Assembly: GCA_003252105.1 (NCBI GenBank)
Contig: QKDL01000071.1
Coordinates: forward strand, 21,035-85,034
DNA length: 64,000 bases
Direction: 5' to 3'
Source of the DNA: Arcobacter sp.
GTDB lineage: Bacteria > Campylobacterota > Campylobacteria > Campylobacterales > Arcobacteraceae
Of the stretch, positions 51,632 through 64,000 are shown piece after piece. A program made the position numbers and the translations under genes. The notes beneath the pieces were generated by a model. The model was not told the DNA's origin, did no database searches, and saw only the letters and a program-made list of their open reading frames with translations. The number at the start of each line of letters is the position of its first letter. Position 1 is the first letter of the stretch.

Positions 51632-52387
51632 TTAAAAATTGTCTGCTTTTTCAAAAGCTTTTCTAGTGATTTCTTCACCATCAAGATTTAAATAAGTCCA
51701 TAGTTTTCCTTTTTCAACTCTTGCAATTCCTTTTGAATAATCATCTGCAAATGCATATTTTGGCTCTACGATTACATTACATTTAGTATCCATAAATCCC
51801 CATTTATCATCTTTTACAATTCTCATTCTTCCTTCATTAGATAAGTAAATCATATCATAATCTAAAGATGCAACAAGTTCATTATCTAAGTTTAGACAAC
51901 CATATTTTGTTTTTTTATTTTTATCATAATTTCTTACAATAACACTTCCATCTAAAACATCTCTAAGTTCATCATAGATTGGTTTAACTACAACTTCAAA
52001 CTTTTCATTGATTAAACCAAATTTTTTATCTACTTCTACTTTTGCATATCCATTAAAGAACTCACCAATAGAATCAAAAATTACTTTTAACTTTAATTTT
52101 CCATCTCTACCTATAATACCATATTTATCATCTACATTTCTTACTACTGCAAACTCTTCATCCCCTATATGTAGCCAATGAAGATTTATATAATGAGGAT
52201 GAACATATGTATTAGAATCTATATCTTTTAGATAACTCATATCTTTGTATATAGGTTTTACTTCTATTTCTCCATCTCTATTTATTAGTCCTTCTTTTTT
52301 TGCAACAGTTACAGTTGTAGCATCATCTTTATAAGTACACCCTGTATATAGCAATACTATTGCCATAAATATTAGTAACTTTTTCAT
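51632..52387 (-). CDS. WG-repeat lipoprotein of the type I secretion operon
   Basis: 251 residues: a lipobox (VLLYTGC), then five or so WG-type repeats such as KEGLINRDGEIEVKPIY, KYGIIGRDGKLKLKVIF, KFGLINEKFEVVVKPIY and KWGFMDTKCNVIVEPKY. WG repeats form beta structures of mostly unknown role. I prefer the ATG at 52387, with GAGGTG upstream. It is the last gene of the TolC-ABC-HlyD operon. A surface or periplasmic lipid-anchored accessory role is inference. Confidence 0.7.
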   Translation of the reverse strand: MKKLLIFMAIVLLYTGCTYKDDATTVTVAKKEGLINRDGEIEVKPIYKDMSYLKDIDSNTYVHPHYINLHWLHIGDEEFAVVRNVDDKYGIIGRDGKLKLKVIFDSIGEFFNGYAKVEVDKKFGLINEKFEVVVKPIYDELRDVLDGSVIVRNYDKNKKTKYGCLNLDNELVASLDYDMIYLSNEGRMRIVKDDKWGFMDTKCNVIVEPKYAFADDYSKGIARVEKGKLWTYLNLDGEEITRKAFEKADNF

Positions 52388-52398
52388 AATACACCTCA

Positions 52399-53730
52399 TT
52401 AGTTTATTTTATTAATTCTAAACTCAACTCTTCTTGATAATGCTTCATCTTCAACACCATTTGCATCATAGATTAAATTATCATAAGCTAACCCTTGATA
52501 ACTAAAATGTTCTTTTAGCCAAGTTTCATTTTCAACAATTAACGGATCTTTTTGAGCTAATGTATACTCGTAAACATGTTTTGCTCTTTTTTCTGAAAGA
52601 ATTTTATTTTTTGTATATCTTTCAACATCATTTTTAGCACTTGCGTAAACTGATGATGTATGACCTTCAATAATTACATCTTTGATTTGATCTTTATATT
52701 TGTCGATTATTTTCATATATCTTGGAATAAAATTATCAAGAATCTTTTTAAATCCATCTCTTAAATCTGAACTACCATGAGTAAATAAAACTTCTGGTTT
52801 TTTAAATCTAAATACCAATCCATCTTTATCTAATTCTGCATTCCAAGGATCAAAATCTGAACCAAATTCAGCCATTAAATCCTCATATAATCCAGCAATA
52901 TATGGAGTCTTCTCAATTACAGGTTCCTCTTTTTTGATTAAATCATTTAAATTTGCAATCTCAACATCTTTATCTATAGTGTTTGTACCAACAGCAGTAA
53001 CAATATAAGATTTAGTTAAATCAGGTTTTTTATCTAATGTTGCACAATATTTTTCAGGACTTACATCAGCTTTATATTTACCAAATGGTTTTAAAGAATC
53101 ACTTGATTCATCAGCAATTGTTAAATCAACTTCTGTAGCATAACCTTTTACAATTTGTCCACAAATCTGATTTGAATCTTGAAGATATTCATCTAGTGTA
53201 ATATCTAGTTTTTCACACATTTTAGTTCTATCTTTTGCTTGTATCATCTCAACAATAAATAAATCATTGTTTTTTGAAGCATTATGAATTGGTTTCATTT
53301 CATGCTTATCAAATACTTCTGTTAATGCTCCATTACATAATAGTAATCTTGACATCTCATTTGTACTATTTCTAGTTGAATCTAACAATGGTGTATCTTT
53401 AAAAACATCAACATTATTAACATTTGCACCTTTTTGAATTAAAAGTTCAGCTATTTCATACTGATTTAATCTAGCTGCAAGATGTAAAGGTGTATACCCA
53501 TACTTATCTTTAGTATCAATTTTAGAACCACTATTGATTAACTCTTTAACGATATTAAAATCTTTTGCTCTTACTGCATCGTGTAATGCTAACTCATAGA
53601 TGAAATCATCATCTGAAACTGGCTTAACTTTTTCCTCAACTATTTTTTCATTTCCAACTACTTGCTCTTTTTGAGAACAACCAGTTAAAAACAGTAAAAT
53701 AGCGAATGTAATGTAAATCAAATTTTTCAT
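52399..53730 (-). CDS. Lipoprotein with ankyrin repeats and a C-terminal OmpA-like peptidoglycan-binding domain
   Basis: 443 residues. The signal ends in LFLTGC. Ankyrin-type repeats lie around residues 45-165 (DKYGYTPLHLAARLNQYEIAELLIQKGANVN and two more copies). A middle part of about 120 residues is unassigned. The OmpA domain includes VIIEGHTSSVYASAKNDVERYTKNKILSEKRAKHVYEY and EALSRRVEFRI. OmpA-like lipoproteins are frequent beside secreted adhesin systems, but ankyrin repeats in one are unusual. I prefer the ATG at 53730, with AAAGGAAG upstream. Confidence 0.8.
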   Translation of the reverse strand: MKNLIYITFAILLFLTGCSQKEQVVGNEKIVEEKVKPVSDDDFIYELALHDAVRAKDFNIVKELINSGSKIDTKDKYGYTPLHLAARLNQYEIAELLIQKGANVNNVDVFKDTPLLDSTRNSTNEMSRLLLCNGALTEVFDKHEMKPIHNASKNNDLFIVEMIQAKDRTKMCEKLDITLDEYLQDSNQICGQIVKGYATEVDLTIADESSDSLKPFGKYKADVSPEKYCATLDKKPDLTKSYIVTAVGTNTIDKDVEIANLNDLIKKEEPVIEKTPYIAGLYEDLMAEFGSDFDPWNAELDKDGLVFRFKKPEVLFTHGSSDLRDGFKKILDNFIPRYMKIIDKYKDQIKDVIIEGHTSSVYASAKNDVERYTKNKILSEKRAKHVYEYTLAQKDPLIVENETWLKEHFSYQGLAYDNLIYDANGVEDEALSRRVEFRINKIN

Positions 53731-53740
53731 ATTTCTTCCT

Positions 53741-55084
53741 TTATTTTTCATGTAATGAATTTTGTTTTATTTTTAAAATTGGTTTTAGAATGTAATCCAT
53801 AATAGTTTTCTTACCAGTGATTACATCAACACTTGCAACCATCCCAGGGATAATTGGTAACTTATTTCCATTTTTTTCTAAATAATTTTTTTCTGTCTGG
53901 ACAACAATCTTATAATAACTTTTTCCATCTTTACTCTCTTTATCTATAATACTATCTGCTGAAATTTCAACAATTTTTCCTTCTAATCCCCCATAAATAG
54001 AAAAATCATAAGCTGTTATTTTTACTATTGCTTTTTGAGAAGGACTTATAAATGCAATATCTTTAGGGTCAATTTTTGCTTCAACTAATAAATTATCACT
54101 ATTAGGAATAATATCCATTAGGCTTGCACCTGGCTGAATAACTCCACCAATTGTATTCATATATATCTCTTTTACAATACCATCTACACTTGACTTTATA
54201 ACTGTTTTATCAATTTTATCAGTATCTGATACCATTCTAGCTTCAGCTTTTTTTATCTCTACAGAGATTCTTTGTAACTCTTTTGAAGCTTCAGCTTTAA
54301 ATTGTGTAATCTTTTCTATTCTTCTATTTTTTATCTCGTTTATAGCATATTTAGATCTAGGAATAGAAAGTTCGGCAGATTTTAAATCACCAACAATTTG
54401 TTGATATTCTTTCTCTATTGCTATAAGCTCAACCTTAGATTTCACACCAGTTTGTACTAGATCTTTTATAGTCTTTCTCTCTATTTTAACTAACTTTAAT
54501 CTAGTCTCATATTTTTCTATCTCTTGTTCAATCTCTTTTAATTCTTGAATTTTTTGATTCAATTGAGAATCTAAAACATTAACAGAACTTTTTAATTCAC
54601 TAACTCTATTTTTGAAAAGAAAAGTTTCTGATTTTATATAATCTTCTGAAATCTTTTTAATCTCATCAGGAAAAACTAAATTAGGAATTTTTTTATCTAT
54701 ATCAATTTGAGACTCAACTTCAAGTCTTACTTTCATTGCTAACCACTGATTATAACTCTCTTGATTCTCTTCTAAAGATGCTAAAAATCTCGTAGTATCA
54801 ATTTTCATAAGAGGTTGCCCTTTTTTTACTTGATCACCAGTTCTAATTAATATCTCTTCTACAAGTCCACCATCTAAAGATTGAATCGTTTGTATTTTTG
54901 AAGAAGGAATAACTTTCCCTTCACCTTTTGTTAACTCATCAATTTCAGCAATACTTGCCCAAATAATTACAGCAATAGCAAATGTCAAAATAAATAAAAA
55001 TAAGAAATCAATTTTAAATGCCGATTTTTCATTTGCTTGACCATAAAGGTTATGGACAAAATTTACATCATTATCTTTTTTCAT
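53741..55084 (-). CDS. HlyD-family membrane fusion protein of type I secretion system
   Basis: 447 residues. A short cytoplasmic part is followed by one helix (FKIDFLFLFILTFAIAVIIWASIAEID), a lipoyl-type domain starting GKVIPSSKIQTIQSLDGGLVEEILIRTGDQVKKGQPLM, a long coiled coil (about 100-290) and a C-terminal beta-barrel domain. It links the ABC protein to the TolC-like channel. I prefer the ATG at 55084 (GAGTGAAG upstream), which overlaps the ABC gene end by 14 bases. Confidence 0.93.
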   Translation of the reverse strand: MKKDNDVNFVHNLYGQANEKSAFKIDFLFLFILTFAIAVIIWASIAEIDELTKGEGKVIPSSKIQTIQSLDGGLVEEILIRTGDQVKKGQPLMKIDTTRFLASLEENQESYNQWLAMKVRLEVESQIDIDKKIPNLVFPDEIKKISEDYIKSETFLFKNRVSELKSSVNVLDSQLNQKIQELKEIEQEIEKYETRLKLVKIERKTIKDLVQTGVKSKVELIAIEKEYQQIVGDLKSAELSIPRSKYAINEIKNRRIEKITQFKAEASKELQRISVEIKKAEARMVSDTDKIDKTVIKSSVDGIVKEIYMNTIGGVIQPGASLMDIIPNSDNLLVEAKIDPKDIAFISPSQKAIVKITAYDFSIYGGLEGKIVEISADSIIDKESKDGKSYYKIVVQTEKNYLEKNGNKLPIIPGMVASVDVITGKKTIMDYILKPILKIKQNSLHEK

Positions 55085-57215
55085 CTTCACTCTTTTTTGC
55101 ACTTGCAAATACTTTTTCTTTTGGTCCATCTGCAATAATTTTACCATTATCCAATACAATCACTCTATCTACTAATGTAAGCAATGATAATTTATGGGTA
55201 ACTATTATTACTGTTTGATCAACTAATATATCTTTTAACTTCCTAATAAACTCTTTTTCAGTTTGTTTATCCATAGAGTTTGTAGGTTCATCAAAAATCA
55301 AAAATGATGGATTCCCCACCAATGCTCTTGCTAAAGTGATTGATTGTCTTTCTCCACCACTTAAACCTTCTCCTCTTTCTCCAACTATAAAATCATATCC
55401 AGCCTCATGCTTCCCTAGAAAATCATGAACACCAGCTATTTTAGATGCAGTTAAAACCTCTTCATCAGTTGCAAAAGGATCTCCTATCGTTATATTATCT
55501 TTTACACTTCCCATAAAAAGAAAAGATTCTTGTGGTACTACACCAATAGCTTTTCTTAAATCAACTGGGTCTATTTGTCTTACATCTGTATTATCTATAA
55601 GAACCGAACCTTTTGAGGGCACATAAAGATTTTGTATCATTTTAATCAAAGTTGATTTACCAGAACCAATTTTCCCTAATATTGCTACTTTTTCACCTTC
55701 ATTAATTTTCAAATTTACATTTTTTAAAACTTCATAATTTTGGTTTTTGTAAGAAAAAGAAACATCTTGAAACTCTATATTTCCATTTAAATGTGGTCTA
55801 CTTAAATATACTCTATGATCTTTTTCAACTTCTAAATTCATAATATCATCTATATTTTTAAGAGCAATTACTGTTTTATCATATTTAATTACCATATCAA
55901 CTATCTTTGATGCAGGAGCAACAGCTCTTCTATTTAACATCATTGCAGCTACTATGGCTCCCATTGTCATATCACCACTTACTGCCAAGAATACTCCAAT
56001 AACAACAACTACTATATTTGATGACTTTATAATAAGTTGAGTAAAGTTACTCGCTGCCTGTGATAAAAGTTGTGATTTTTCACCAAAATAAGCAGTTTGT
56101 CCCAATGATTTATCCCAATGAGTTTTCATCCTATTTTGTCCACGAACACTTTTTATTATCTCTAAACCAGCTACCGTTTCATTTAATGTAGTTTGTTTTA
56201 TCTGATCCTCTTTTACAGTTTTTAATACAGTTTTTTTAATAACTTTTTGTATAAAAAGAGAGAACCCAATGGTAATTATAATTGTAACAACAGGAATCCA
56301 ACCTAATGGACCACCTATATAAAACATTATGGCAATAAAAATAAATAAAAATGGTATATCAACCAATGTGGTAATTGTTGCTGTTGTAAAAAAATCTTTT
56401 ATAGACTCAAATGATTGTAATCTGTTTACAAACATCCCTGTTGAAGCAGGTTTTGAATTTATTCTAAGATTTAATAAATGGTCAAAAATCTTATTTGACA
56501 TAATTATATCAGCTCTTTTTGAAGCTTTTCCTATATAATATGATCTAATAGTTCTAAGTATAAAATCAAAAATAAATACAATAATTACACCAATTGTTAA
56601 TGCCCACAAAGATTCTATTGCATTGTTTGGTAAAACTCTGTCATAAACATTCATAATAAATAAAGGTAAGGCTAATACAAAAATATTTATCAATATAGAG
56701 GCAATAACTATTCTTACATAAAACTCTTTATTTTTTTTCATTGTACCCCAAAACCATTTTCTTGGTTCTGTTATAGATACTTCTTTTGCAACCCTATTTT
56801 CGAAATTATATGCTGGCTTTATTATTATAACTTTTCCAGTATATAAATTATTTAATTCATCTAAAGGAATTGTTGTTTCACCTAGACCTATCTCGGGTAT
56901 AATGACACTTGCAATATTTTCATCTTCATTATAATCTAAAAGAATCATTGAATCATATTCTTTTGTCAAAATCACTACGGGTAAAGTAAAAACTGAGATA
57001 TTTTCTATCTTTTCTCTTGAAACTAATTTAGAAATTAAATCAACTTTTTTTGATGCGATTATGAAATTCTTTACATCCATCACCTCACCAAATATAGATA
57101 AACCATTTATTAATGATTCTTTGGAAGTTGCACGTTGATAATATTTTGATATGAAAAATAGAGACTCTAAAAGAGTATCTACTTTTCGACTTACAGATTC
57201 TTCAAGTTGATTCAT
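55071..57215 (-). CDS. Type I secretion ABC transporter (LapB/LssB-like)
   Basis: 714 residues. The N-terminal 130 residues are a C39-like domain without the catalytic cysteine, typical of exporters that do not cleave a leader. The membrane domain runs from about 155 to 440. The ATPase has Walker A (LGKIGSGKSTLIK), signature (GLSGGERQSITLARAL) and Walker B (FLIFDEPTNSMD). Such exporters serve large LapA-like adhesins. It is 13 bases after the TolC-like gene. Its substrate is most likely the repeat protein at the window end. Confidence 0.93.
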   Translation of the reverse strand: MNQLEESVSRKVDTLLESLFFISKYYQRATSKESLINGLSIFGEVMDVKNFIIASKKVDLISKLVSREKIENISVFTLPVVILTKEYDSMILLDYNEDENIASVIIPEIGLGETTIPLDELNNLYTGKVIIIKPAYNFENRVAKEVSITEPRKWFWGTMKKNKEFYVRIVIASILINIFVLALPLFIMNVYDRVLPNNAIESLWALTIGVIIVFIFDFILRTIRSYYIGKASKRADIIMSNKIFDHLLNLRINSKPASTGMFVNRLQSFESIKDFFTTATITTLVDIPFLFIFIAIMFYIGGPLGWIPVVTIIITIGFSLFIQKVIKKTVLKTVKEDQIKQTTLNETVAGLEIIKSVRGQNRMKTHWDKSLGQTAYFGEKSQLLSQAASNFTQLIIKSSNIVVVVIGVFLAVSGDMTMGAIVAAMMLNRRAVAPASKIVDMVIKYDKTVIALKNIDDIMNLEVEKDHRVYLSRPHLNGNIEFQDVSFSYKNQNYEVLKNVNLKINEGEKVAILGKIGSGKSTLIKMIQNLYVPSKGSVLIDNTDVRQIDPVDLRKAIGVVPQESFLFMGSVKDNITIGDPFATDEEVLTASKIAGVHDFLGKHEAGYDFIVGERGEGLSGGERQSITLARALVGNPSFLIFDEPTNSMDKQTEKEFIRKLKDILVDQTVIIVTHKLSLLTLVDRVIVLDNGKIIADGPKEKVFASAKKSEDEKR

Positions 57216-57228
57216 ATGTTACCAATAA

Positions 57229-59037
57229 TTAGTTATTTGTTTTAAATTTTTTGAAAAGTTTTCTATGTTTATCTAATAAATCAATATATGTATTGTCATT
57301 AATTAAACTTTTATCCATACTTTTAAATAACTCTTTTGCATCAGCTAATTTATCAAAACTTCCATATATCACATTAATATTATTATTTGTATTGTATGTA
57401 TATATGTCATCTTTATTTAGATTTGTTTTATTTAAATAAGAATTTACATCAAAATTTTGATCAAAACTTGCTATTTTTATTGTATATTTTCCATCAGGTA
57501 AACTTTTTACTTGCTTATTTTTTTCCATACCATCTGCAGTTGGTTCTTTTTGAGTAGTACCATTAATTAAATTATTGATTTCAGAATCAATTGTTTTATT
57601 ATTTGCAGTAGCATCAGTATTATTTACTTTTGTTTGACCTAACTCTTTTAATAAATCTAAGTCATTAAGTTCATCATTATTGCTTTTAACTTTTTCTTTA
57701 AATTTACTTTTGTATTCTGAAGCAATAAATGGTCTACAAATTTGATTTTCAGACATTAAAACACTTGTAGTTAAAAATCCACTATGTGTCAAAATATCAT
57801 AATAATAAGTATATAATTGATATTCAAAATCTAACATATCTAAAGATGATCTATAAAACTCTGATTCTGCGTCAAGAATATCAATAAATGTTCTTGTTCC
57901 ATCTGTTAATTGTTTAAAATAAACTTCTTTAATATTATAGTTATCTTTAACATATTTTTTATAATTTTCAATTTTCTCTTTATACGCAAAATAGTTATTA
58001 TAACTTGTTTTTACCTCTTTAATAACTTCTGCTACAACTGTATCAAGAACTTTTTGTCTTTCTTGTAAAAAGATAATTTCTCTTTCCCTTGCTATTTTAT
58101 TTTTTCCACCTTCAAAAAGGTTCCAATTCATAATAATTCTAAATCTTGATATATCTTGTCTTCCATTTTCTGGATATGCTAAATCATCGTCTAGTGTACC
58201 TTGCCATTGAAATCTAAGAGTTGGTAAAAATGTAGCATTTGCTTGAACAATATTTTCTCTTTGAGTTTTGATATCTTCTATTGCTCTAAGAATTTTTGGA
58301 CTTTTTCTTAATGCTAATTCAATCGCTTCTTCTAATGTATCAGGAATAAAAGCTTCATTTATAGTTGGTCTACAAATGTTACCAATATTTTCGATACCTG
58401 ACTTTTCTTCAAAAATATTTTTTGCATCTGATGCAGTAATCTTTTGTTCTAAATATCTATCAATCACATAATGTTTTTTTGAATTAACTTGAAAGCTTTC
58501 TAATATTTCTCCACTGATTTCTTCTTTTTGCTGAGCAATCACTAGATAATCTTCATGAACTTGTAAATTTAATTGAGATAAATCAATCATCTCTTGAGAT
58601 TTAACAGCATCTAAATAACTGTTTATAGTTTCCCTTACAATTTCATCTACTCTTATCAAACTTCTATACTTGTTTGATAAATATAAGTGTCTATATTCTT
58701 CAACTTGACTTGGTGTTTGACCACCATCATAAATTATTTGTTCAAATTGTAAATATGCATTCCAACCATCTTTGCTAGCTGTAACAGGATCTGTTGCAAC
58801 ATTGTCTCTATCACTTCTAGTTTTAGAATCCTCAACATATGCTTGAAAATCCAATGTTGGATAATAATCACCACGTTCCTCATCAATATATTTTTGATAA
58901 GCATCCCTATTTAACTTTTCTGATAATATATCAGGGTTTTTGCCCATTGTGCTTACTACTGCATCTTTCAATGAAGTAGAGTTAGCAAGATTAACAAGAA
59001 GTCCTAACATAACTGCTGTTTTAATTAGTGTTTTCAT
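57229..59037 (-). CDS. TolC-family outer membrane protein with a C-terminal SPOR-like domain
   Basis: 602 residues from the preferred ATG at 59037 (signal MKTLIKTAVMLGLLVNLANS). The TolC-type repeats cover about 25-430: SLKDAVVSTMGKNPDILSEKLNRDAY, TLEEAIELALRKSPKILRAIEDIKTQ, and the channel helices LTDGTRTFIDILDAESEF. A linker of about 80 residues follows. The final 90 residues look like a SPOR domain (YTIKIASFDQNFDVNSYL ... INVIYGSFDKLADAKELF), which in other proteins binds septal, denuded peptidoglycan. A TolC channel with a SPOR tail is not a common arrangement. Confidence 0.85.
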   Translation of the reverse strand: MKTLIKTAVMLGLLVNLANSTSLKDAVVSTMGKNPDILSEKLNRDAYQKYIDEERGDYYPTLDFQAYVEDSKTRSDRDNVATDPVTASKDGWNAYLQFEQIIYDGGQTPSQVEEYRHLYLSNKYRSLIRVDEIVRETINSYLDAVKSQEMIDLSQLNLQVHEDYLVIAQQKEEISGEILESFQVNSKKHYVIDRYLEQKITASDAKNIFEEKSGIENIGNICRPTINEAFIPDTLEEAIELALRKSPKILRAIEDIKTQRENIVQANATFLPTLRFQWQGTLDDDLAYPENGRQDISRFRIIMNWNLFEGGKNKIAREREIIFLQERQKVLDTVVAEVIKEVKTSYNNYFAYKEKIENYKKYVKDNYNIKEVYFKQLTDGTRTFIDILDAESEFYRSSLDMLDFEYQLYTYYYDILTHSGFLTTSVLMSENQICRPFIASEYKSKFKEKVKSNNDELNDLDLLKELGQTKVNNTDATANNKTIDSEINNLINGTTQKEPTADGMEKNKQVKSLPDGKYTIKIASFDQNFDVNSYLNKTNLNKDDIYTYNTNNNINVIYGSFDKLADAKELFKSMDKSLINDNTYIDLLDKHRKLFKKFKTNN

Positions 59038-59171
59038 AGTTTTTTCCATTAGTTTTAGTCTATTTTTATTAATCATACTTAAAGATTGTTTACAAATTAC
59101 TTAAAAAATTATTTTAAGGAAACTTTTTGGAGACATTTCTTAATTTTATATTAATATGTGTAAAAATAAGT

Positions 59172-59182: not shown

Positions 59183-59875
59183 ATGCAAAAAATGAACCAT
59201 TTAGAAAAACTTAATATTTTGTATTTAGAAGACGAAGATATAATTAGAAATAATGTTAGTACAATGCTACAATACTTATTTAACGAGGTTTATGCAACAT
59301 CTTGTGTATCAGACGCTATATCATGCTTTGAAACAAAGGAAGTACACATAATATTAAGCGATATAAGCATGCCTGGTAAAAATGGCTTAGATTTTATAGA
59401 ACACTTACGATCAAAAAGAGTCAATATACCGGTGATTTTATTAACTGCTCATACTGATACAGATTTTTTGTTAAAAGCTACGAAGTTGAAACTTGTTGAT
59501 TATTTGACAAAACCTGTTAATTTTGTAGATTTAAAAAATGCATTATTAAAAGCAGGAGAAGAATATTTTGAAAATAATTCTCTTATAATAAATTTTCCAA
59601 ATCATATAACTTATGATTTTAATAAAAAATTACTTTATGAGAATAATATAACGAAAGATATAACGGCAAAAGAATTACAACTATTAGAGTTTTTATACGA
59701 GAATAAAAATAGAGTAGTTTCAAAAGAAGAGATTCAAAATGCAATATGGGAAGATTCATTTTATGCTACAGAATCAGCTTTTAAATCTTTATTAAATAAA
59801 CTTAGAAATAAAATTGGGAAACAATCTATAAAAAATATTTCTGGGATAGGTTATCAATTGATAATTAATGAATAA
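59183..59875 (+). CDS. OmpR-type response regulator
   Basis: 230 residues. The receiver domain (about 10-125) has the acidic pair ILYLEDEDI, the phosphoacceptor in HIILSDISMPGKNG (D60) and the switch Lys in DYLTKPVN. The winged HTH at 140-228 reads ITAKELQLLEFLYENKNRVVSKEEIQNAIW. The partner kinase gene is convergent and overlaps its end by 11 bases. It lies between the secretion operon and the adhesin, so control of either is likely but unproven. Confidence 0.93.
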   Translation: MQKMNHLEKLNILYLEDEDIIRNNVSTMLQYLFNEVYATSCVSDAISCFETKEVHIILSDISMPGKNGLDFIEHLRSKRVNIPVILLTAHTDTDFLLKATKLKLVDYLTKPVNFVDLKNALLKAGEEYFENNSLIINFPNHITYDFNKKLLYENNITKDITAKELQLLEFLYENKNRVVSKEEIQNAIWEDSFYATESAFKSLLNKLRNKIGKQSIKNISGIGYQLIINE

Positions 59876-60674
59876 GAGGGACAGTTATAATAAATCTTGC
59901 ACCTTTTTCTATATTTTCTACAAATAATCTACCATTCATATTATTTTCTACAATTATTTTTGACATAAAAAGACCTATTCCTGTACCATTTTTTTTATCT
60001 ACAGTAAAAAATGGCTCAAATATCTTTTCAACAGGATCTACACTAATACCCCCTGCATTATCTTCTATAATTAAAATTGAGTTATCTTCTTTTTTATCAA
60101 TTATAATTTTTATTTTAGGATTTTCTATTTTTCTATCAATTAAAGCATCTTTCGAATTATTTAATAAGTTAATAAGTACCTGAGAATATTCATTTTTAAA
60201 TCCATATATTTTAGGATTCTTTTTAATAATTATTTCAACTTTTATATCATGTTGCTTTAGGCACATATTGACCATACTTACTGCTAAACTAACTTGATTT
60301 GAAATTCTATAGTCAACTTTTTCTTTTTCTTTTGCAAAAAAATCTCTAAAATCATCTATAGTTTGAGACATATATTGAGTAATTGATTCTGATTTTTTTA
60401 AAAAATTTATAAGTTCAGATTCTTCAATCTTTCCTTCAAATTCAATTTTTGATTGGATTACCATAAATATTGAAGAGAGTTCCATAAGTGGTTGTCTCCA
60501 TTGATGAGCAATATTTCCAATCATTTCACCCATTGAAGCCATTTTACTTTGTTGAAACAATACTTTGTCATTTATTCTATTTCGTTCAATCTCTTCAGAT
60601 ATCTTACTTTTTAATAGTTTTATCTCTTCTTTTAATTGATTGTTTTCTTTTTTTAACGCTTCCTCAGTAGTCAA
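59865..60674 (-). CDS. Soluble sensor histidine kinase
   Basis: 269 residues without a membrane helix. Residues 1-45 form a coiled coil. The phosphorylated His is in GEMIGNIAHQWRQPLMELSS (H57), the N box is LINLLNNSKDALIDR, G1 is IEDNAGGIS, the F box is FEPFFT and G2 is GTGIGLFM. The short N terminus suggests that it receives input from another protein or through the coil. The start is TTG at 60674 with AGGACA upstream. It is downstream of the adhesin gene and convergent with its likely regulator gene. Confidence 0.9.
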   Translation of the reverse strand: MTTEEALKKENNQLKEEIKLLKSKISEEIERNRINDKVLFQQSKMASMGEMIGNIAHQWRQPLMELSSIFMVIQSKIEFEGKIEESELINFLKKSESITQYMSQTIDDFRDFFAKEKEKVDYRISNQVSLAVSMVNMCLKQHDIKVEIIIKKNPKIYGFKNEYSQVLINLLNNSKDALIDRKIENPKIKIIIDKKEDNSILIIEDNAGGISVDPVEKIFEPFFTVDKKNGTGIGLFMSKIIVENNMNGRLFVENIEKGARFIITVPLIH

Positions 60675-60735: not shown

Positions 60736-63700
60736 TTAGATGTCATCATCTACATCGATATCTGTATCAATATAAACAGTAACATTTGAGTTGTTTGTAT
60801 TTGTGTACTCATCAAACTCACCATCTTGTCCATCTACAGAAGTTCCTTCTTGACCTTTTGTCCATCCTTGATTATCATTAAGGTTTTCATCATCTGTAAA
60901 TGTTACAGTATCTCCATCATCACCTATAATAATCAAATCGTTATCATCATCTGTAGAATCAATAATTGAATCTAAATCAATTTCTAATTTATCTTCTTCG
61001 CCATTTTCCATATTTGCAATATTATTAGATACGATAGAATCTAAATCAATTGATTCTTCTTCACTTTCTGCTCCTGTTCCATCTTCTGAATCATCTCCAG
61101 ATTCATCATCTTTAGATTCTTCACCCTCTTCATTTGAACCTTCTTCAGCAAAAGATGTTGCTTCTTTTTCATCAGGTTCATTATCAGAATCAGTTTCCTC
61201 ATCATTTGATGATTCAGGTACATATTTATTCTCAACTAAAGTGATATCTGATGGATTTGAACTATAATTAAATACAATATCATTTGTATTTTGTTTTAAA
61301 TCTGTTCCTTCCGGTTGTTCACCTTTTACAATGATATCAGTACCAGCTTTAATTGCATATCCTACAACTTCGAAGCTACTATCTCCTGTTATTTCAGCAA
61401 CTTTACTTTCCAATGCACTTTCATATTCTTCTGGTACACTTGAATCTTTAACTTCACCATTCCAGTTATCTATTTTCACTTCTATAGCTTCGCCTGATGC
61501 ATTAGTTAAGAAGAATGTAACATTTGAAATTGCATGATCTAAATCAGTATCTGTGTCTGTATCCGAGTCACTATCTGAATCACTGTCGCTATCCGAGTCG
61601 CTATCGCTATCACTGTCTGAATCTGAATCTGAATCGCTGTCTGAGTCTGAATCACTGTCGCTATCTGAGTCACTGTCGCTGTCGCTATCTGAATCTGAAT
61701 CCGAGTCACTATCGCTATCGCTGTCTGAATCGCTGTCGCTGTCGCTATCACTGTCAGAATCTGAATCTGAATCGCTATCTGAGTCTGAATCGCTGTCGCT
61801 ATCTGAGTCACTGTCGCTGTCGCTATCTGAATCTGAATCGCTGTCTGAGTCTGAATCACTGTCGCTATCTGAGTCGCTGTCGCTATCTGAATCTGAATCC
61901 GAGTCACTATCGCTATCGCTGTCTGAATCGCTGTCGCTATCTGAATCTGAATCCGAGTCACTATCGCTATCGCTGTCGCTATCACTGTCAGAATCTGAAT
62001 CTGAATCGCTGTCTGAGTCTGAATCACTGTCGCTATCTGAGTCACTGTCGCTGTCGCTATCTGAATCTGAATCCGAGTCACTATCGCTATCGCTGTCGCT
62101 ATCACTGTCAGAATCTGAATCTGAATCGCTGTCTGAGTCTGAATCACTGTCGCTATCTGAGTCGCTGTCGCTATCTGAATCTGAATCCGAGTCACTATCG
62201 CTATCGCTGTCTGAATCGCTGTCACTATCACTGTCAGAATCTGAATCTGAATCGCTGTCTGAGTCTGAATCCGAGTCACTGTCGCTGTCGCTATCTGAAT
62301 CTGAATCTGAGTCACTATCGCTATCACTATCAGAATCTGAATCTGAATCTGAATCGCTGTCGCTATCTGAGTCACTGTCGCTGTCGCTATCTGAGTCACT
62401 GTCGCTATCGCTATCTGAGTCTGAATCTGAATCACTGTCGCTATCTGAGTCTGAATCCGAGTCACTATCGCTATCTGTATCTGTATCCGTGTCTGTATCA
62501 GTATCTGTATCTGTGTCTGTATCCGTATCAGTATCAGTATCAGTATCTGTATCAGTATCCGTGTCTGTGTCAGTATCTGTATCTGTATCTGTATCCGTGT
62601 CAGTATCTGTATCCGTATCCGTGTCTGTATCTGTATCTGTATCTGTATCCGTATCTGTATCTGTATCAGTATCAGTATCCGTGTCAGTATCTGTATCTGT
62701 ATCCGTATCCGTGTCCGTATCAGTATCAGTGTCAGTATCTGTATCTGTATCTGTGTCTGTATCAGTATCCGTGTCAGTATCTGTATCCGTGTCTGTATCC
62801 GTGTCTGTATCCGTGTCAGTATCTGTATCCGTGTCTGTATCCGTGTCTGTATCTGTATCTGTATCTGTATCTGTGTCTGTGTCAGTATCAGTATCTGTAT
62901 CCGTGTCTGTGTCAGTATCTGTATCAGTATCAGTATCCGTGTCTGTGTCTGTGTCAGTGTCAGTGTCAGTATCAGTATCTGTATCTGTGTCTGTATCAGT
63001 ATCCGTGTCAGTATCTGTATCCGTGTCAGTATCTGTATCCGTGTCTGTATCCGTGTCTGTATCCGTGTCTGTATCTGTATCTGTGTCAGTATCAGTATCT
63101 GTATCCGTGTCTGTGTCAGTATCTGTATCTGTATCAGTATCAGTATCCGTGTCTGTGTCAGTGTCTGTATCAGTATCCGTGTCTGTGTCAGTATCTGTAT
63201 CAGTGTCTGTATCAGTATCAGTATCTGTATCTGTGTCTGTATCAGTATCCGTGTCAGTATCTGTATCCGTGTCTGTATCCGTGTCTGTGTCTGTGTCTGT
63301 ATCAGTATCCGTGTCAGTATCTGTATCCGTGTCTGTATCTGTATCTGTGTCTGTGTCTGTGTCTGTATCAGTGTCCGTATCAGTGTCTGTATCAGTATCC
63401 GTGTCAGTATCAGTGTCAGTATCTGTGTCTGTGTCTGTATCCGTGTCAGTATCTGTATCTGTATCTGTGTCAGTGTCTGTGTCAGTGTCTGTATCAGTGT
63501 CTGTATCTGTGTCAGTGTCCGTATCAGTATCAGTATCAGTATCAGTGTCTGTATCAGTATCTGTATCAGTGTCAGTGTCTGTATCAGTATCAGTATCCGT
63601 GTCTGTATCCGTGTCAGTGTCTGTATCAGTGTCTGTGTCAGTATCTGTATCCGTGTCTGTATCAGTATCTGTATCCGTGTCTGTGTCAGTATCAGTATCC

Positions 63701-64000
63701 GTGTCAGTATCTGTATCCGTATCCGTGTCTGTATCAGTATCTGTATCAGTATCTGTATCTGTATCCGTGTCTGTGTCAGTATCTGTATCAGTGTCTGTAT
63801 CAGTATCAGTATCCGTGTCTGTATCCGTGTCAGTGTCTGTATCAGTGTCTGTATCAGTATCTGTATCAGTATCAGATTCTAATCTAGAACCTCTTTCTGT
63901 AGGAACTACTGGAGTTAATTCTTGACCTCTTGTTTCATCTATAAATAAAGTTGCATCACTAGCTGTTTCACCTGCTGCAGCTGCATCTAATGCTTCTGCT
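60736..64000 (-). CDS. Type I secreted LapA-like adhesin with a pure Asp-Thr/Asp-Ser dipeptide stalk (5' end outside the window)
   Basis: Continuous minus-strand frame from the window edge to TAA at 60736, about 1087 codons visible. The ORF track lists only the last 248 residues, because the repeat has no start codon. In order from the N side: the end of a LapA-like retention module ([20 protein letters not shown], then [10 protein letters not shown]), with AAAAG as a possible LapG cleavage site; 466 codons of DT; 305 codons of SD; three DT; a beta-rich domain of about 110 residues ([19 protein letters not shown] onwards); an acidic linker; and a C-terminal domain with [13 protein letters not shown] and [16 protein letters not shown], resembling type I secretion ends. 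No RTX nonapeptides are visible. The exporter genes lie downstream. Confidence 0.85.
61561..62475 (-). repeat. Asp-Ser dipeptide repeat tract of the adhesin
   Basis: 305 codons alternating Asp (GAT or GAC) and Ser (mostly TCA, TCG, AGT and AGC), with no other residue in the lines I translated. Longer copies occur inside it: 61981-62040 and 62101-62160 are identical, and a related block begins at 61747 and 62227, giving steps of 234, 120 and 126 bases. The G+C is far above that of the flanking genes. Confidence 0.9.
62476..63873 (-). repeat. Asp-Thr dipeptide repeat tract of the adhesin
   Basis: 466 codons alternating Asp (GAT or GAC) and Thr (ACA, ACT or ACG; ACC not seen). A longer block starting atcagtatccgtgtcagt on the plus strand recurs near 62761, 62995, 63241 and 63301, giving steps of about 234, 246 and 60 bases. 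All length changes in 6-base units keep the frame. Confidence 0.9.

Follow-up and report, generated by a model that had tools for sequence, protein, structure and literature searches.

The DNA analyzed here, which we call the window, is a stretch of 64,000 nucleotides at the end of contig C51 (positions 21035-85034) in a draft Arcobacter sp. genome of 3.0 Mb. In the part of interest, five minus-strand genes are transcribed in the order tolC-like, ABC exporter, hlyD, ankyrin-OmpA, and WG (Table 1). The genes upstream of the last two, which encode a pair of lipoproteins, are matched by the ABC, HlyD, and OEP families of Pfam. A divergent response regulator gene (59183) lies beyond the tolC-like gene, followed by a kinase gene (59865) and then by an adhesin gene.

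Table 1. Features of the exporter locus, with positions counted from the first base of the window.
Feature	Position	Strand	Details
WG-repeat lipoprotein	51632..52387	-	251 aa, lipobox YTGC, five WG repeats; Pfam WG_beta_rep 8e-36
Ankyrin - beta-sandwich - ZorB-II-like OmpA lipoprotein	52399..53730	-	443 aa, lipobox LTGC; Pfam Ank_2, OmpA
HlyD-type periplasmic adaptor	53741..55087	-	TIGR01843 382.6 bits, cut-off 208.65
LssB/LapB-type ABC exporter	55071..57215	-	TIGR03375 831.5 bits, cut-off 693.1; cysteine-free C39-like N-domain
TolC-like outer-membrane channel, C-terminal SPOR-like tail	57229..59076	-	OEP 2e-34
Response regulator, winged-helix output domain	59183..59875	+	Pfam Response_reg, Trans_reg_C
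Soluble histidine kinase	59865..60674	-	Pfam HATPase_c 4e-18
Lap-type adhesin, cut by contig end	60736..63999	-	LapG-type motif, then long Asp-Thr / Asp-Ser runs

An earlier note on this DNA had described two lipoprotein genes set behind hlyD with gaps of 10 and 11 bp. Their reading frames and coordinates are as it claimed, and the ribosome-binding sites and lipoboxes agree. The ankyrin-OmpA gene starts (MKNLIYIT) at 53730, 10 bp past the HlyD stop, with the ribosome-binding site AGGAAG; the WG gene starts (MKKLLIF) at 52387, 11 bp past the ankyrin-OmpA stop, with GAGGTG upstream. Both lipoboxes are good (LTGC-SQK in ankyrin-OmpA and YTGC-TYK in WG). Since Ser or Thr directly follows the lipid Cys in each protein, the E. 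coli rule predicts that both reside at the outer membrane.

Judged by those sequence features that can be tested, the system is Lap-type (LapA/LapG/LapD). ABC transporters of the LapB/LssB kind export retained adhesins, and the exporter scores above the LssB cut-off, with a C39-like domain that is degenerate and free of Cys. The adhesins of relatives begin with an N-terminal retention module of ~145 residues followed by (D/E)AAAAG; of the N-termini that we read, only that of L106 departs from this, with EAASAGE. A LapG-type di-alanine motif is encoded by the final bases of the window, and the window's adhesin begins at this motif because the contig ends there. The genome holds three LapG homologues with PF06035 matches over the cut-off, although the NCBIfam LapG equivalog cut-off was not reached (214.6 vs 320). 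One of them, on contig C73, adjoins a LapD gene (LapD_MoxY_N, GGDEF, EAL), and another, on C70, lies behind a large adhesin-type ORF. The third, on C4 (L197 3842-4510), has no LapD gene adjoining. In genome G213, lapG and lapD belong to the operon itself, where they are flanked by the response regulator and tolC genes and precede ankyrin-OmpA and WG. The two lipoproteins might, as had been suggested, hold the adhesin or its regulator; retention of the adhesin is itself explained by the Lap-type retention module and the LapG site. In the window's adhesin (60736-63999, minus strand), Asp alternates strictly with Thr and then with Ser over hundreds of residues, for which the only NCBIfam matches are staphylococcal Sdr/Clf serine-aspartate repeats; Asp-Thr runs of a similar kind occur in the adhesins of G197 and G209.

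We searched for the two lipoproteins in 104 genomes of the family Arcobacteraceae and read and tabulated the neighborhoods of nearly all matches. The ankyrin-OmpA protein was matched in 38 genomes, with OmpA-only and ankyrin-only matches counted, and the WG protein in 32. Ankyrin repeats are borne by 37 copies including the window's, one of which starts at a contig end, leaving 36 that are testable. Directly behind hlyD lie 29 of the 36, and WG is the next gene in 25 of the 28 hlyD-linked copies with a visible next gene, at a spacing of -11 to +19 bp. This linkage means that the pair belongs to the exporter, which bears out the claim that the lipoproteins are part of the secretion operon. The check proposed in advance was whether relatives keep the two genes mostly away from T1SS genes; when we ran it, they turned out to be mostly together. 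The arrangement is more than chance, and it recurs in diverged relatives.

The gene order does vary. The three hlyD-linked loci without WG next form one related group, in which a kinase gene comes next instead. WG directly follows hlyD without an ankyrin gene in G070 and G177, and likewise in G176 as far as its coordinates indicate. A histidine kinase gene follows WG in 13 loci, usually with the adhesin gene next; the window is therefore of a type that has both at the other end of the operon. WG had been described as the last gene of the set, and this is true of the window but not in general, given the 13 relatives with a kinase after WG and the three-member group without WG.

Full-length relatives of the ankyrin-OmpA protein were found only in Arcobacteraceae-type genomes, both among 150 genomes of the order and in a scan of 84,980 species that used just two peptide patterns. 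Relatives with named records are Halarcobacter, Malaciobacter, and other Arcobacter-like bacteria. We rejected the idea of a widespread ankyrin-OmpA protein, as nearly all other matches were to the OmpA part alone.

Seven ankyrin copies stand without hlyD: three are solitary (G150, G163, and G224), and the remaining four (G195, G197, G208, and G209) are second copies, their genomes having the operon as well. Relatives of WG occur elsewhere in four genomes (G178, G224, G227, and G228), in the first three beside an Era-like GTPase gene. The solitary copies and the displaced WG relatives would be expected if the two proteins were general envelope lipoproteins that merely share the exporter's operon. 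We consider this improbable, as the exporter linkage holds in several genera, with identities of 30-60% and with the locus at differing places in the chromosome. Even so, the pair is not universal among exporters of this kind: within the ABC clade, defined at an identity of 54% or more and comprising 84 loci in the family, about a third of loci have the pair and about two thirds do not, which makes it accessory rather than core.

Some of the second ankyrin copies have neighbors of their own. Genes that look Mur-ligase-like, ATP-grasp-like, and acyltransferase-like, as called by eye from the translations, are clustered there (loci L008 1-15000, L090, L087-L088, and L199). The cluster adjoins the second copy of the window's own genome (contig C7) and, in G197, G208, and G209, lies between the adhesin gene and the second ankyrin copy.

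The ankyrin-OmpA lipoprotein has three domains. Residue numbers here follow the alignments, with the codon preceding the start (53733) as number one; subtracting one gives the numbering from MKNLIY. The AlphaFold model (mean pLDDT 83) places ankyrin repeats at 41-165 and an OmpA fold at 282-442, with a beta-sandwich between them at 177-261 that was absent from the earlier description. Pfam recognizes Ank_2 (3e-18) and, weakly, OmpA (2e-06; 28.4 bits, cut-off 27.2); the weak score arises because the OmpA domain is of an unusual kind. A PDB sequence search with this domain returned a single match, ZorB of Sulfuricurvum kujiense (8vvi, 8e-27), and 8vvi was also the top Foldseek match. The PADLOC ZorB2 profile matches at 4e-52, and the NCBIfam ZorB2 model scores 144.1 bits against a cut-off of 400, covering residues 280-439 only. 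The N-terminal inner-membrane part of a whole ZorB2 protein is missing, with a lipobox and ankyrin repeats there instead.

The motif GHTSS, containing H358 and S360, is invariant in an alignment of 16 ankyrin-OmpA proteins, and these two residues correspond to H141 and S143 of ZorB II. ZorB II binds peptidoglycan, and mutation of H141, S143, R215, or R230 disrupts the binding (PMC11890865). Its S143 occupies the position of D188 in ZorB I (PMC11890865). Going by this alignment and these profile matches, the OmpA domain is specifically of the ZorB II kind and retains the His and Ser that ZorB II requires for peptidoglycan binding. We rejected a close fit to an ordinary Pal/OmpA domain on two grounds: ZorB II is the best match, and Ser stands where Asp is usual. 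A relic of a Zorya system was also rejected, because ZorA is absent and the N-terminus is the wrong one. No ZorA partner gene was found around the pair in the window or in the relatives' neighborhoods that we read. Short stand-alone OmpA proteins elsewhere are separate, and the two that we checked adjoin ZorA-like genes.

The channel of the exporter carries similar parts. TolC proteins of the clade have extra C-terminal domains that are SPOR-like, LysM, or OmpA, all of which are peptidoglycan-binding families. Pfam SPOR matches 7 of 22 clade TolCs, at best with 3.5e-11. The window's TolC tail stays below the Pfam SPOR cut-off (13.7 bits vs 21) and is called SPOR-like through its match to a profile of the relatives' SPOR-type tails. 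A LysM tail occurs in G220. OmpA tails, of the same kind as the domain in ankyrin-OmpA, are fused to the TolCs of G216, G217, G185, G043, and G191 and to that of a paralogue on contig C12 of the window's own genome. In a tree of OmpA domains whose base is weak and which has several long branches, the short ZorB-like domains stand apart from those carried by ankyrin proteins and TolCs, and the tail of the G216 TolC is nested among the ankyrin-OmpA domains (support 97/92). One kind of domain thus appears either fused to TolC or on a separate protein, which is the best evidence that the ankyrin protein works at the channel. A strict compensation between TolC tail and ankyrin-OmpA was considered and rejected: none of 28 loci lacks both a recognizable tail and an intact GHTSS, but the chance of this is ~0.14 and the loci are not independent, so that the pattern is suggestive and not significant. 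Two further observations concern the channels. The C12 paralogue (L009 4977-11451) is accompanied by a divergent response regulator gene and, where the contig ends, by an adhesin-like ORF, and G178 and G217 encode oversized TolC-like proteins of more than twice the usual length (1358 aa, L222 7954-12030; 1344 aa, L223 2029-6063).

The OmpA motif is degenerate or missing in seven loci that keep the ankyrin gene, so wall binding is not the sole role of the protein everywhere. Ankyrin lipoproteins without the OmpA part are 254 aa (L104 5680-6444) and 270 aa (L093 15305-16117) long, and L104 retains the exporter and WG genes. The retention of the ankyrin gene where the OmpA part decayed is one reason to ask whether the adhesin or LapG is the main target of the lipoproteins. 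Ankyrin domain and WG repeats would then bind the adhesin's periplasmic retention module and either shield its di-alanine site or present it to LapG, with OmpA only positioning them. Ankyrin repeats are protein-binding modules, and the adhesin gene is often next in the same operon. The fusions of the OmpA domain, on the other hand, are to TolC and not to the adhesin or LapG, and exporter loci of the same kind mostly do without the pair; on balance, we regard this explanation as unlikely, though as the most serious of the competing ones.

The WG protein offers fewer clues. Its AlphaFold model consists entirely of strands, at moderate confidence (pLDDT 73), and its two cysteines besides the lipid Cys are invariant. 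A PDB sequence search with it returned no match. Foldseek returned beta-propeller proteins at low TM; among them are the lipoprotein BtuK1, designed propellers, and 5ayw, presumably BamB of the BAM complex. Judging from its position in the operon, WG may be a beta-repeat scaffold partner. Relatives of the WG lipoprotein that directly adjoin an Era-like GTPase gene (L110 7883-8557, L122 7553-8227, and L123 7390-8049) have no exporter near. A wall-binding domain together with a propeller-like partner recalling BamB would also fit a pair of assembly factors, which would assist the insertion or opening of TolC trimers where the peptidoglycan has gaps and be dispensable once the channel is built. 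Many related exporters lack such genes, and we give this idea little credence.

We instead favor, by a narrow preference over all other readings combined, the proposal that the ankyrin-OmpA and WG proteins are accessory subunits that tie a Lap-type exporter with a load-bearing adhesin to the cell wall. Until it is cut by LapG, the adhesin would stay threaded in the TolC pore, so that forces pulling on it would load the pore. On the inner face of the outer membrane, the ankyrin-OmpA lipoprotein would bind the pore complex through its ankyrin and beta-sandwich part and grip peptidoglycan with its ZorB-II-like domain. The load would pass through this protein to the wall, and the pore would be held in place. 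The SPOR tail of TolC, or the LysM or OmpA tail in relatives, might serve the same end. WG would act within this complex as a scaffold of beta-repeats, perhaps much like BamB in BAM; this is the weakest step.

That the two lipoproteins could brace the channel against the wall had already been suggested, and the suggestion gains indirect support from the ZorB-II-like domain, with two key peptidoglycan-binding residues kept, from the same kind of domain fused to TolC in relatives, and from the SPOR or LysM tails on other TolCs. Counted against a load-bearing role are the absence of the pair from most loci of the ABC clade, the degenerate or missing OmpA motif in seven loci, the seven solitary or second ankyrin copies found away from hlyD, and the moderate confidence of the WG model. 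A broader version is possible but somewhat less probable than its absence: exchangeable wall anchors (SPOR, LysM, or ZorB-type OmpA), carried either on TolC or on a companion ankyrin lipoprotein with WG, may hold the pore-plugged adhesin to peptidoglycan.

To our knowledge, it is little understood how pore-plugged Lap-type adhesins resist the forces that pull on the outer membrane. The two conserved lipoproteins, one with a predicted wall-binding domain, and the exchanged tails on the channel make the load-bearing question directly testable. The findings also link a domain known from a phage-defense motor to adhesin export and give the WG-repeat lipoprotein family a lead based on gene neighborhood. 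In a search of open-access papers, we found no description of the ankyrin/WG pair, of a ZorB-type domain in an adhesin exporter, or of TolCs with such exchanged tails, and no functional study of WG repeats.

The locus can be compared with several known systems. With the LapA/LapBCE/LapDG system of Pseudomonas fluorescens, and with Bpf of Shewanella and Dvh/Bfs of Desulfovibrio, it shares the LssB/LapB-type ABC exporter, HlyD, and TolC, as well as an adhesin with a retention module and di-alanine site and genes for the protease LapG and the receptor LapD. It differs in the two extra lipoproteins, the TolC tails of wall-binding type, the two-component pair beside the exporter, and the usual placement of lapG-lapD at another site. 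In the bpf cluster of Shewanella oneidensis, the OmpA-family gene SO4321 lies between the T1SS genes and bpfG-bpfD, and its deletion affects biofilm (PMC4523816). OmpA-like proteins beside Lap-type exporters are therefore already known; the likeness rests on position and on the annotation in PMC4523816, and an ankyrin part or WG partner is not described for SO4321. The Salmonella SPI-4 T1SS has an auxiliary protein, SiiA, that binds peptidoglycan; bacteria that have lost siiA and siiB still secrete but are impaired in invasion (PMC12607715). SiiA thus resembles our proposal in mattering for adhesin function and not for secretion as such, but it sits in the inner membrane as a partner of the proton channel SiiB and has no lipoprotein, ankyrin, or WG part. 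Finally, ZorB of type II Zorya (8vvi, PMC11890865) shares the peptidoglycan-binding OmpA-like domain with its GHTSS motif, in sequence and in fold. Here, by contrast, there is neither ZorA nor an inner-membrane helix, and the domain belongs to a lipoprotein of outer-membrane type whose gene lies in the operon of an adhesin exporter.
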